Positions 25,582 to 29,426 of a DNA stretch of 64,000 nucleotides are shown here, in pieces. The notes under the pieces were generated by a model. The model searched no databases. It was not told where the DNA came from and saw only the letters and a list, made by a program, of their open reading frames with translations. The DNA comes from Nakamurella flava. Lineage in GTDB: Bacteria; Actinomycetota; Actinomycetes; Mycobacteriales; Nakamurellaceae. Numbering within the stretch: position 1 is the first letter of the stretch; each line of letters starts with the position of its first letter. The DNA lies in NCBI RefSeq assembly GCF_005298075.1, contig NZ_SZZH01000001.1, forward strand, positions 1,426,001 through 1,490,000. The letters run 5' to 3'. Position numbers and translations under genes: made by a program.

Positions 25582-26649
25582 TCACACCACCGGCGACAGG
25601 TAGTCCATTCCCATGGCGGCCCGCACCCGGTCGAGTACCCCGGTCACCTGCTCGGTGGCGGCCGCGATGCCGTCGACCAGGACCGCGTCCAGGTAGGACG
25701 GATCGGCCAGCAGCTCCGCGCGGCGGGCCCGGATCGGGGCGAGCGCCGAGTTCACCACCTCGGTGGTCACCTGCTTGAGCCGGGCCGCTCCCCCGTCGCC
25801 GATCTCCGCGGCCACGTCCCGCGGGTCGCGATCGCTCAGGGCGCCCACGATGGTCAACAGGTTCCCGACCTGCGGCCGTCGCGCCGGGTCGAAGGTGATG
25901 TGTCGCTCGGAGTCGGTGCGGGCCGCTCGGATGACGGCGGCGGTCTCGTCGGCACCGGCCCCGAGGGCGATGCTGTTGTGCCGTGACTTGGACATCTTGG
26001 CGCCGTCGGTACCCAGGACGACCGGCGCACTGGACAGCAGCGCCGCGGGCGGGGTGAAGAGCGTCTCCCCGCCCGCGTACCGGTCGTTGAACCGGCGGGC
26101 GATGAGCCGGGCGACTTCCAGATGCGGGAGCTGGTCCTTGCCCACCGGGATGAGAGTGCCTCCGCAGCCGAGGATGTCGGCAGCCTGATGGACCGGGTAG
26201 GTCAGGAGCAGACCACTCGTGGAGTTCTGACGGGAGGCCATCGCCTCGGCTTTCACCGTCGGGTTGCGGCGCAGCTCGCCGTCACTGACCAGCGAGAGGA
26301 ACGGCACGAGCAGCTGGTTGAGGGCCGGTACGGCGGAGTGCGGGAAGATCACCGTGCGCTCGGGGTCCAGACCGACGGCCAGGTACTCCGCGACGAGCGT
26401 GCGGACGCGGTCGCGCAGCGGGCCGATGTCGTCGCGATCGGTGATGACCTGATAGTCGGCGATGATCACCGTCACGGGGATTCCGAGATCCTGGAGGCGG
26501 ACCCGGTTCTGGAGGGTGCCGACGTAGTGGCCGAGGTGCAGGCCGCCGGTGGGGCGGTCGCCGGTGGCGACCCGCTCGGCCGGCCCGAGGGTGGTCTCGC
26601 CGGTCAGGGTCGGGGCGAGCTCGGTGCCGAGGGTGAGAGTTGCGGTCAT
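25582..26649 (-). CDS. trpS: Tryptophanyl-tRNA synthetase
   Basis: This class I synthetase charges tRNA-Trp. The 355-residue length is normal. The HIGH-type motif is GLHLGHYVG at residues 36-44 and KMSKS is at 218-222. GKDQLPHLE contributes to the active site. The sequence start ATGDRPTGGLHLGHYVGTLQNRV resembles the second, auxiliary TrpRS of actinomycetes, some of which are indolmycin-resistant. Whether another trpS exists elsewhere cannot be seen. The ATG at 26649 has a GGAG ribosome-binding site only 6-9 nt upstream, and this GGAG can be paired in a hairpin. A leader peptide with two Trp codons precedes the gene, so expression is probably controlled by tryptophan supply. Confidence 0.93.
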   Translation of the reverse strand: MTATLTLGTELAPTLTGETTLGPAERVATGDRPTGGLHLGHYVGTLQNRVRLQDLGIPVTVIIADYQVITDRDDIGPLRDRVRTLVAEYLAVGLDPERTVIFPHSAVPALNQLLVPFLSLVSDGELRRNPTVKAEAMASRQNSTSGLLLTYPVHQAADILGCGGTLIPVGKDQLPHLEVARLIARRFNDRYAGGETLFTPPAALLSSAPVVLGTDGAKMSKSRHNSIALGAGADETAAVIRAARTDSERHITFDPARRPQVGNLLTIVGALSDRDPRDVAAEIGDGGAARLKQVTTEVVNSALAPIRARRAELLADPSYLDAVLVDGIAAATEQVTGVLDRVRAAMGMDYLSPVV

Positions 26650-26652
26650 GGT

Positions 26653-26688
26653 CAGCTCCAGGGGGCAGTGGTCACCGCGGAGGAGCTG
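26653..26688 (-). promoter_or_regulatory. Anti-Shine-Dalgarno hairpin at the trpS start
   Basis: On the minus strand, CAGCTCC (26688-26682) and GGAGCTG (26659-26653) form a 7-bp perfect inverted repeat that ends 3 nt before the trpS ATG. The GGAG of the ribosome-binding site is the 3' arm, so this fold would occlude initiation. It lies downstream of the Trp leader peptide and of two other GC-rich hairpins (26725-26746 and 26692-26713). Confidence 0.6.
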
Positions 26689-26691
26689 GGT

Positions 26692-26746
26692 CGGGCGCCG
26701 TCAGGCAAGCCCGGAGGGAACGACCCGGCCGCTGCGCGGCGGCCGG
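26692..26746 (-). promoter_or_regulatory. Two leader hairpins between the Trp peptide and trpS
   Basis: On the minus strand a perfect 8-bp hairpin CCGGCCGC/GCGGCCGG spans 26746-26725. A second stem, CGGGC-tt-GCC with GGC-GCCCG, spans 26713-26692. CGACCC (26688-26693, read on minus) can alternatively pair with GGGTCG inside the first hairpin, which gives mutually exclusive folds. Confidence 0.5.
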
Positions 26747-26771
26747 AGGTCGAGGACATCACGGAACGCCG

Positions 26772-26810
26772 TCAGGCGGTCCGCCACCAGGACAGGTGCA
26801 AGGACGTCAT
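26772..26810 (-). CDS. Tryptophan leader peptide upstream of trpS
   Basis: This 12-residue ORF (MTSLHLSWWRTA) has tandem TGG codons at positions 8 and 9, occupying 26784-26789. It starts at ATG 26810, and TACGCT ends 6 nt upstream, so it is probably translated from a leaderless transcript. It stops 122 nt before the trpS ATG. Trp-rich leader peptides followed by alternative RNA folds are the classical arrangement of ribosome-mediated attenuation, which is known for auxiliary TrpRS genes in Streptomyces. Stalling at the Trp codons would change folding of the downstream hairpins. Confidence 0.7.
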   Translation of the reverse strand: MTSLHLSWWRTA

Positions 26811-26816
26811 GGGTCC

Positions 26817-26822
26817 AGCGTA
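26817..26822 (-). promoter_or_regulatory. Candidate -10 element for the trpS leader
   Basis: TACGCT on the minus strand (26822-26817) ends 6 nt before the leader peptide ATG at 26810. No clear -35 sequence is seen. Confidence 0.5.
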
Positions 26823-27563: not shown

Positions 27564-27776
27564 CCGGCCCGACTTCCCGGGCCGCAGAGAACTTTACATG
27601 GCGCCAGCACGGAAACTGAAATCGGCAGCTCAGAGGCCTACGGCACACCACCTGGCCTGGTCCCGACCCGCTCCCGTGCACCGTCGTCTCGCACGCACAC
27701 AGCCCCGGTTCGCTTGCGTCCAGCTGTCATCATCGGCGGACACGGCAACGACGCCGATCACGTGGAGGTAAGACCG

Positions 27777-29426
27777 ATGGCCCGCGACGAGGGCGACGAG
27801 GTGACGGTCCGACCGGAGATCCGACAGTCCTGGCGACGGTCCGAACTCCACGGCGTCGGCCAGGACTCCGTGGTCTCGGTCGTCGTCCGAGACGTCAACC
27901 GGGGTAGCCGGCTGATGGCGGCCGCGCAGCCCGTCCTCGACCACCTGATGACAGAGATCGGCTCCGAACCCGTGTCGCTGATGCTGGCCGACCGGGAATG
28001 CCGCGTGGTCTACCAGCGTTCCGGCGCGCGGTTCCTCGGCGCGTCGTTGGAGTCGAACGGTGTCCTGCCGGGGGCCACCCTCGACGAGGGCGTGGCCGGG
28101 ACCAACGGCCTCGGCACCCCGTTCGAACTCGGCCGCAGCGTGGCCATCAATGGGGACGAGCACTACCTCAACGCGCTGAAGGGCTTCTCCTGTTTTGGCC
28201 ACCCCATCCGTCACCCGTTGACCGGACGGATCGAAGGTGTGCTCGACCTGACCTTCGTCGCGGCTCGGCCCGGCGACACTCATGGCCTGGGCCCGCTGGT
28301 CGCGCCATTGGTCGCCCACGCCGCGCACGACATCGAGACGCGACTGTTGGAGGGGTCGCGGGCCGCCGAGCGCCGCATGTTCCTCGCCTTTCAGTCCGCG
28401 GTCCGCAAACGGTCCGCCCCGGTGGCGGTCCTGGGCGGTGACGTCGTGCTCGCGAACCGTTCCTGCCTCGACCGGCTCGGTTCGCAGAGTCCGACGGTGT
28501 TGCGTGTCCTGCTGGCCGACCTCGGCACCCGGTCACGGATGACCCAGCAACTCGACCTGGGATCGGCGGGCCGGTTCTGGGTGGATACCGAGCGCATCGA
28601 CGGAACCCCCGACGGCGTGCTGTTCCGCCTCGACGAAAGCGTCGAGACCCCCGGTGGCCGACCCCGCGCGTCGACGCCGGTCCGCTCCCGCGGCCCGTTC
28701 GTCGTCGCCGGCGAACCCGGCACGGGTCGTACCCACGAGGCGGACCGGCTGGTCGGGTCGGCGTCGGCCGATCGCTTCGACACCCTCGACGCCGTCGTCG
28801 GGGATGCCGGCGAGTGGCTGTCCCGGGTGGTCGCCGCGGCCGCCCGGCCGGGGGGCTTGATCGTCGAGAACGTCGAGGCGCTCGACGACACGTCGTGCGC
28901 GGTGCTGCGGCGGGCCCTGGCGACGTCACCGCGGATACCGATCGTGCTGACGTCGGCTCCGCTGGCCGAGTTGTCCGTCGCCGTCTCGGCTCTCGTCTCG
29001 GCGTGTACCGACCGTATCGAACTGGTGCCGGTGCGCGAGCGACTCCCCGAGTTGCCAGCGTTGATCGCCGCGCTGGCCTCGGAGGGTGACGCAGGCCCCG
29101 CGTTCACCGTCAGCGCCCAGGCTCTGGAGGTGCTGGCCGGCCAGCCCTGGAGCGGCAACATGGCCGAACTGGCCCAGCTGGTCGGCGAGCTCCGAGCCCG
29201 GCCACTGGCCGGCCGGGTCGGTGTCGACGACCTACCGAGCCGGTACCGCCAGCGGACCCGAAGTGGGCTGTCCGGACGGCAACGGGCCGAGCGGGGGGCC
29301 ATCGTCGCCGCTCTGCGCGAGGCCGGCGGCAACAAGCGGGACGCGGCGCAAGAACTCGGGATGAGCCGAACAACCCTCTACCGCAAGATGCGCGAGTTCG
29401 ACATCCCGGGCACCTCTCGGGGGTAG
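27777..29426 (+). CDS. GAF-domain transcriptional regulator with Fis-type HTH (AcoR-like, without sigma54 motif)
   Basis: The 549-residue regulator resembles AcoR-type activators. It has a GAF-type sensor near residues 55-185, with LPGATLDEGVAGTNGLGTP and CFGHPIRHPLTGRIEGVLDLT. A degenerate ATPase-like part has GEPGTGRTHEADRL near 312-325. The C-terminal Fis-type helix-turn-helix is GNKRDAAQELGMSRTTLYRKMREF. The GAFTGA motif required for sigma54 contact is absent, so it probably works with ordinary RNA polymerase, as is known for some actinobacterial relatives. The ATG at 27777 follows GGAGGTAAGA. It lies 192 nt before an aldehyde dehydrogenase gene, its likely target. Confidence 0.85.
   Translation: MARDEGDEVTVRPEIRQSWRRSELHGVGQDSVVSVVVRDVNRGSRLMAAAQPVLDHLMTEIGSEPVSLMLADRECRVVYQRSGARFLGASLESNGVLPGATLDEGVAGTNGLGTPFELGRSVAINGDEHYLNALKGFSCFGHPIRHPLTGRIEGVLDLTFVAARPGDTHGLGPLVAPLVAHAAHDIETRLLEGSRAAERRMFLAFQSAVRKRSAPVAVLGGDVVLANRSCLDRLGSQSPTVLRVLLADLGTRSRMTQQLDLGSAGRFWVDTERIDGTPDGVLFRLDESVETPGGRPRASTPVRSRGPFVVAGEPGTGRTHEADRLVGSASADRFDTLDAVVGDAGEWLSRVVAAAARPGGLIVENVEALDDTSCAVLRRALATSPRIPIVLTSAPLAELSVAVSALVSACTDRIELVPVRERLPELPALIAALASEGDAGPAFTVSAQALEVLAGQPWSGNMAELAQLVGELRARPLAGRVGVDDLPSRYRQRTRSGLSGRQRAERGAIVAALREAGGNKRDAAQELGMSRTTLYRKMREFDIPGTSRG

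Follow-up and report, generated by a model that had tools for sequence, protein, structure and literature searches.

A Trp-Trp leader, alternative hairpins, and a Shine-Dalgarno-sequestering helix upstream of an auxiliary trpS gene of Nakamurella flava

The auxiliary tryptophanyl-tRNA synthetase (TrpRS) gene trpS of Nakamurella flava is likely controlled by a tryptophan-responsive, ribosome-mediated transcription attenuator like those known for Streptomyces trpS genes, a reading that is given a probability of roughly 0.8. The gene lies in the window, which is the whole stretch of 64,000 nt that was analyzed, and it is preceded by a short open reading frame (ORF) with two adjacent Trp codons, by four RNA segments (1-4) that can pair in alternative ways, and by a hairpin that covers its Shine-Dalgarno (SD) sequence. 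In the proposed mechanism, transcription would probably start at the leader ATG, and the 12-codon leader would be translated as a leaderless ORF. When Trp-tRNA is sufficient, the ribosome would reach the stop codon and mask segment 2, upon which hairpin 3:4 would form and transcription would end. When Trp-tRNA is short, because the cell is starved of Trp or because the housekeeping TrpRS fails or is inhibited, the ribosome would stall at the Trp codons and mask segment 1. Segments 2 and 3 would then pair before segment 4 has been transcribed, leading to read-through and production of the backup TrpRS. A separate hairpin over the trpS SD should hold translation low.

The leader ORF and its recurrence ahead of trpS genes

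The trpS gene (25582..26649, (-) strand, start codon ATG at 26649-26647) encodes a protein of 355 aa that matches TIGR00233 with 218 bits against a cut-off of 177 bits. Since the genome encodes a second TrpRS (at C3) with 37% identity to the window enzyme, the window trpS is taken as the auxiliary gene that stands alongside a housekeeping TrpRS. The closest solved structures by sequence are 1yi8 and 2a4m; the latter was deposited as tryptophanyl-tRNA synthetase II and is presumably the Deinococcus radiodurans enzyme.

A sequence-only reading of this DNA had described a 12-codon ORF with two adjacent TGG codons upstream of trpS, and this ORF is found at 26772..26810 (-). It encodes MTSLHLSWWRTA followed by a stop codon, begins 161 nt upstream of the trpS start, and reads ATG ACG TCC TTG CAC CTG TCC TGG TGG CGG ACC GCC TGA, with the Trp codons TGGTGG at 26789-26784. 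The recurrence of such short ORFs with tandem Trp codons was followed upstream of 172 genes for this type of TrpRS (49-71% identity, query excluded), with regions taken from an order survey (397 genomes), a class survey (394 genomes), and the best 80 loci of a named-genome scan. The strict scan accepted a small ORF if Trp-Trp or Trp-x-Trp fell in its last eleven codons and if 70-420 nt separated its stop codon from the conserved core downstream. A strict leader is present in 92 of the 172 regions and absent from 80, compared to a mean of 2.8 (maximum 7) in 20 dinucleotide-shuffled sets and to three on the opposite strand. By source, the strict leader precedes 37/48 order loci, 38/45 class loci, and 17/79 named loci (among the best 80).

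Within the genus, a trpS of this type occurs in nine of 17 genomes, and eight of these nine genes carry a strict leader, with the endings SWWRTA, SWWRNA, SWWLTA, SWWLPA, SWWRTA, NWWRTA, NWWRAA, and NWWRLPLAAV. The Trp codons are therefore conserved among relatives, as the sequence-only reading required, and the leader is widespread in Actinobacteria. A curated set of 90 leaders was assembled from the 92 strict-match loci by removing three doubtful ones (L012, L017, and L083) and adding L094 by hand; L091, L093, and L101 each offered two candidate ORFs, one of which was selected. The Trp motif in these 90 leaders is WW in 76, WWW in ten, WSW in two, and WRW in two. The WSW and WRW leaders keep the Trp codons, but not the DNA word TGGTGG. 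For the 69-member non-redundant set used below, L131 and L158 were removed beforehand, and L016 is too short for the scan. In the hand-added L094, upstream of an auxiliary trpS from the same genus, promoter spacing, hairpins, and TGGTGG are all present, yet an in-frame TAG lies directly before the Trp codons; this leader is decayed or altered, or it contains a sequence error.

The leader ORF of the window is most likely translated without a 5′ untranslated region, as judged from the DNA in front of it. The -10-like hexamer TACGCT (26817..26822, (-)) ends 6 nt before the leader ATG and would serve as the promoter for leaderless transcription. Of the 90 curated leaders, 83 have a TANNNT hexamer whose end lies 5-9 nt ahead of an in-frame start codon (6 nt in 53, 7 nt in 28), which compares with a mean of 3.8 and a maximum of 8 in shuffled upstream DNA and makes it probable that the leader is leaderless. 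An SD-like motif before the leader start is missing in 78 of these 83 leaders. An excerpt of a transcriptome study on Streptomyces lividans likewise describes a TAnnnT -10 motif, a share of 17% of transcripts without a 5′ untranslated region, and a number of leader peptides that are themselves leaderless, including one before a trpS (PMC8079986). The elements of the leader are located where the sequence-only reading placed them, but its length changes. Position 26822, taken as the beginning of a 174-nt leader, is the first base of the TACGCT box, and transcription therefore probably begins directly at the leader ATG (26810) or close to it, which shortens the 5′ leader to about 161 nt. A WhiB7-like box (GAAAWY) was found upstream of two of the 90 leaders and is not present at this locus.

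The leader tends to accompany genes with a backup function. In 50 named genomes, drawn from the best 80 loci of the scan, it is present in 8/12 genomes with a second TrpRS and in 4/38 genomes with only this TrpRS type. The latter number refers to curated leaders and rises to seven if the three doubtful matches are counted (Fisher 3e-4 and 3e-3, respectively). The leader thus accompanies backup enzymes, though it is not confined to them. The four exceptions (L005, L024, L035, and L043) carry Trp-Trp leaders although this TrpRS type is the only one found in the genome, which suggests self-regulation of an essential TrpRS. Among 41 housekeeping-type TrpRS loci, a hand-picked and non-random sample, a similar leader is present in two (L187 and L201; trpS 36-41% identical to P0001). 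A TACGGT and a TACGAT box lie 6 nt ahead of their leaders MHTRIVLWWAADRRP and MRTRIAMWWAADRRP, respectively; Trp-Trp leaders hence also precede a different type of TrpRS, in two genomes that belong to one genus.

Alternating segments and the proposed termination switch

Downstream of the Trp codons, the sequence-only reading had seen two GC-rich hairpins able to re-pair with each other, and folding bears this out. Segment 1 (GUGGCGGACCGCC, 26775..26787, (-)) overlaps both the Trp codons and the final codons of the leader. Segment 2 (GGCGUUCCGUGAU, 26758..26770, (-)) can take segment 1 or segment 3 as its partner. Segments 3 (26739..26752, (-)) and 4 (26721..26732, (-)) form the 5′ and 3′ arm of a terminator-like hairpin. 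Hairpin 1:2 (26787-26758) has a helix energy of -15.9 kcal/mol, hairpin 3:4 (26752-26721) one of -21.3 kcal/mol, and the competing 2:3 duplex one of -17.7 kcal/mol. A 183-nt stretch of the locus folds with -82.1 kcal/mol, which is better than 200/200 dinucleotide shuffles (z -3.1).

A common layout is shared by the 69 non-redundant leaders, its segment order being partly imposed by the search windows. Segment 1 overlaps the Trp codons or comes shortly after them, segment 2 is located near the end of the ORF or right past its stop, and a compact GC hairpin 3:4 follows downstream. In 50 of the 69 leaders, segment 2 pairs more stably with the segment 3 of its own leader than with that of other leaders (p 5e-6). 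Helices 1:2 and 3:4 had been chosen for good pairing, which makes own-partner tests on them circular, so that only the 2:3 result counts.

The pairings 1:2, 2:3, and 3:4 are mutually exclusive, and the ribosome position would decide between them only kinetically. For transcripts that stop short of segment 4, upstream pairing takes up a share of 0.83 of segment 3 when the ribosome is at the first Trp codon, 0.82 at the second, and 0.31 at the stop codon (69 leaders), a preference that is partly built into the model because a stalled ribosome leaves more upstream RNA free. The upstream pairing of segment 3 is greater at the stall by >0.2 in 62/69 leaders and the reverse holds in none; at the window locus the respective values are 0.78, 0.78, and 0.22. 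A stall would therefore favor 2:3 before segment 4 exists. When the full-length RNA is folded to equilibrium, 3:4 dominates in most leaders regardless of the ribosome (0.92/0.87/0.93 at the window locus). The minimum-energy fold of the window locus contains 2:3 with the ribosome at the first Trp codon, but 3:4 with the ribosome at the second. Given the dominance of 3:4 at equilibrium, the decision between 2:3 and 3:4 must be kinetic, as it is in the classical trp attenuator.

An 11-nt direct repeat, GCCTGACGGCG, had also been pointed out. Both copies exist 71 nt apart, the first over the leader stop codon (26777-26767) and the second at 26706-26696 (-), inside a small third hairpin (26692..26713, (-)) that is probably incidental. 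As a functional element the repeat was rejected: the second copy is missing in the eight same-genus relatives with the gene and is probably incidental, and the first copy is part of helix 1:2.

Hairpin 3:4 is followed by a U-rich tail more often than expected. At least four U in the 9 nt after the hairpin are present in 28/69 leaders, compared to 2.8 in shuffled spacers (maximum 7), and CGGCCCUUUUUCGU is a common tail form. The tail of the window locus, UUCCCUCCG, is weak with 3 U of 9, and the case for termination here is consequently made by the family data together with the stable hairpin. In the same genus, the tails of L086, L087, L089, L091, and L094 contain 4 or 5 U, and those of L085 and L088 only 2 U. 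The 12 leaders of a Streptomyces-like group, labeled after its MKSLVLVWWLPS-type leaders, have at most 2 U of 9. These weak tails, along with an SD hairpin that pairing does not couple to the attenuator (see below), would suit a different main signal acting on a conserved leader and SD hairpin, either Rho-dependent termination governed by translation of the leader or binding of TrpRS to its own mRNA at the SD hairpin. Such a signal is nevertheless judged quite improbable, as the 3:4 hairpin is conserved at a fixed place and the U-tails of the family have to be accounted for. The family data favor termination as the main switch.

The SD-sequestering hairpin

The SD of trpS is sequestered in the default state. 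The 7-bp stem with the trpS GGAG in its 3′ arm, which the sequence-only reading had proposed, is formed by the anti-SD arm CAGCUCC (26682..26688, (-)) and the SD arm GGAGCUG (26653..26659, (-)), the latter including the SD GGAG itself (26659-26656). Opening the SD costs 10.7 kcal/mol, which is more than in 40/40 shuffles (mean 5.1 kcal/mol). A 7-bp SD helix alone is not rare in such GC-rich DNA, since an equal helix score is reached by 8% of 60 shuffles. GC-rich DNA folds easily, and a short ORF with two TGG codons could arise in it by chance and appear to be regulatory; the leader, the promoter spacing, and the alternative pairing all recur, however, and this explanation carries next to no weight.

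Across the family, the opening cost was computed for RNA that begins where segment 4 ends, and similar leaders were collapsed to reduce kinship, with the statistics ignoring the remaining relatedness. In 65 non-redundant leaders, SD opening costs 7.15 kcal/mol versus 4.32 kcal/mol in shuffles, and 54% reach p<0.1. In the 37 genes for this type of TrpRS that lack a strict leader, the cost is 2.96 versus 3.07 (11% with p<0.1), and in 239 other long ORFs from the same loci it is 3.89 versus 3.48 (6% with p<0.1). The leader-bearing trpS genes differ from the no-leader genes with a Mann-Whitney value of 1.7e-7 and from the other ORFs with 9e-11. Relative to its surroundings, the SD of leader-bearing trpS is locked at the 82nd percentile, compared to the 58th in 153 other ORFs. 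Cruder measures (pairing probability and longest helix), for which near-identical leaders were not collapsed, point in the same direction with smaller effects. The start codon itself is not additionally locked (2.14 versus 2.28). No enrichment was found in housekeeping-type TrpRS genes, for which an SD is present in 17 of the 41 hand-picked loci (3.81 versus 3.64).

The sequence of the lock varies by family, e.g., CAGCUCC/GGAGCUG in the window and L118, GCUCUC/GAGAGC in the Streptomyces-like group, GGUCCUCU/AGAGGACC in L120, and GCUCCU/AGGAGC in L155. The lock seems to be conserved as pairing and not as sequence. A uniform lock within the genus was rejected, as only three of eight testable members (the window locus, L094, and L113) reach p<0.1 by opening energy. 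The earlier suggestion of translational control by an anti-SD hairpin therefore holds in part: the hairpin exists, and trpS genes with a leader show an excess of SD sequestration, but the genus does not share it throughout and the family data point to termination.

The enrichment in leader-bearing trpS, which is seen neither in no-leader nor in housekeeping-type trpS, speaks for a translational attenuator, in which the SD hairpin would be the default OFF state and stalling would open the SD, e.g., by letting freed segment 4 capture the anti-SD strand, while transcription would not be the controlled step. Besides the weak U-tail, the window locus offers a possible duplex of segment 4 with the anti-SD stretch (-16.5 kcal/mol) that would link both locks. 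The sequence-only reading had accordingly proposed that a ribosome stalled at the Trp codons frees the trpS start, and this proposal finds no support at the window locus in silico. In equilibrium folding, the SD is paired with 1.00/1.00/1.00 across three modeled ribosome states, and when segment 4 is freed, SD opening costs 9.3 kcal/mol with the native segment and 9.6 kcal/mol with a shuffled one, so that the native segment 4 performs no better than its shuffled control.

In the family, the signal is slightly stronger. Among 85 leaders folded to equilibrium, the SD opens by >0.2 on stalling in only six and closes in one. Freeing segment 4 in 84 leaders lowers the opening cost by >1 kcal/mol in 33 and raises it in seven, a comparison that is biased because the added upstream sequence adds competitors, and for which shuffled and foreign segments 4 serve as controls. 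The opening cost is 7.13 with segment 4 locked, 5.82 with the native segment freed, 6.55 with a shuffled one (p 0.003), and 6.17 with a foreign one (p 0.08); the effect is small. The anti-SD strand has no significant own-partner preference for any of segments 1-4 (p 0.06-0.85, 55 leaders). Judged by the three-state folding, the segment 4 controls, and the own-partner preference together, SD release on stalling is unsupported at the window locus and weakly supported in the family. As the U-rich tails of the family far exceed chance, a translational attenuator is considered unlikely, and transcription attenuation is preferred.

Alongside transcription attenuation, the SD hairpin is most aptly viewed as a second lock that is separate from the modeled stalling response, and the simplest reading of its role would be that it keeps basal translation low. 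SD sequestration does not act as compensation for missing U-tails, as no correlation between the two was found across leaders. Tentatively, Trp-attenuated trpS genes of Actinobacteria might be regarded as two-lock devices, in which the leaderless Trp-Trp leader would set transcription and a separately evolving SD hairpin would set translation. Another signal may open the second lock; TrpRS itself is one candidate, and in certain lineages the attenuator strand, once freed, might take this part.

Relation to known systems and genomic context

The window locus joins a known kind, the attenuated auxiliary trpS. One such system, reportedly trpRS1/SCO3334 of Streptomyces coelicolor, is reported to be alike in its auxiliary TrpRS gene, its Trp-codon leader peptide, and attenuation by ribosome position. 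The window locus differs from it in belonging to another genus, in its weak U-tail, and possibly in its SD-sequestering hairpin. Ribosome-mediated transcriptional attenuation of an auxiliary, antibiotic-resistant TrpRS gene is the subject named in the title of Vecchione and Sello 2010, which is cited in PMC4787780. For trpS2 of Streptomyces avermitilis, Seliverstov et al. 2005 predicted a candidate attenuator of the classical type upstream of the gene (PMC1262725); this is a one-species prediction, and the retrieved part of that paper mentions no SD hairpin for it. TrpL2 of S. lividans, according to the excerpt of PMC8079986, is a leaderless leader peptide before trpS with two hairpins and no U-rich stretch, and it differs from the window leader in having a single Trp codon (MMTRTCTQLWRAA).

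Tandem Trp codons and four alternating segments are shared with the leaders of trp biosynthesis operons, with the distinction that the window leader controls a tRNA synthetase and not biosynthesis. The E. coli type trp operon leader is the classical attenuator of this design. Trp leaders of trp biosynthesis operons are also described for Streptomyces and Corynebacterium in sections of PMC1262725. In the genome of the window locus, the best trpE match (below the family cut-off) lies at L177, whose first 2000 bases lack TGGTGG and thus give no sign of the same control ahead of this match. The translational T-box of actinobacterial ileS resembles the window locus in combining an aminoacyl-tRNA synthetase gene with an SD-sequestering hairpin, but it senses tRNA directly, as outlined in the same sections of PMC1262725, whereas the window locus has a leader ORF instead. 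A search of Rfam, covering T-boxes and other families, returned nothing above threshold for the window, and ten related loci were likewise without a match.

The curated set supplies 90 leaders for a type of element for which Rfam holds no family matching the window or the ten relatives. The data suggest that attenuation of a backup tRNA synthetase extends well beyond Streptomyces and is linked to carrying a second TrpRS. A Streptomyces TrpRS1 is reported to resist indolmycin (PMC9437257), and trpS SCO3334 is reported to be WblC-activated (PMC7157823). The unexpected part is the specific sequestration of the trpS SD in leader-bearing genes, a candidate second, translational layer that is testable with a few point mutations. 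An SD lock in trpS leaders is not named in the titles and abstract openings searched, which lie largely outside subscription papers, so that its absence from print is not implied. Elsewhere in the window, an ORF at 27714-29426 (+) encodes a regulator whose top NCBIfam match is DhaR (95 bits against a cut-off of 551), mostly through its C-terminal part.
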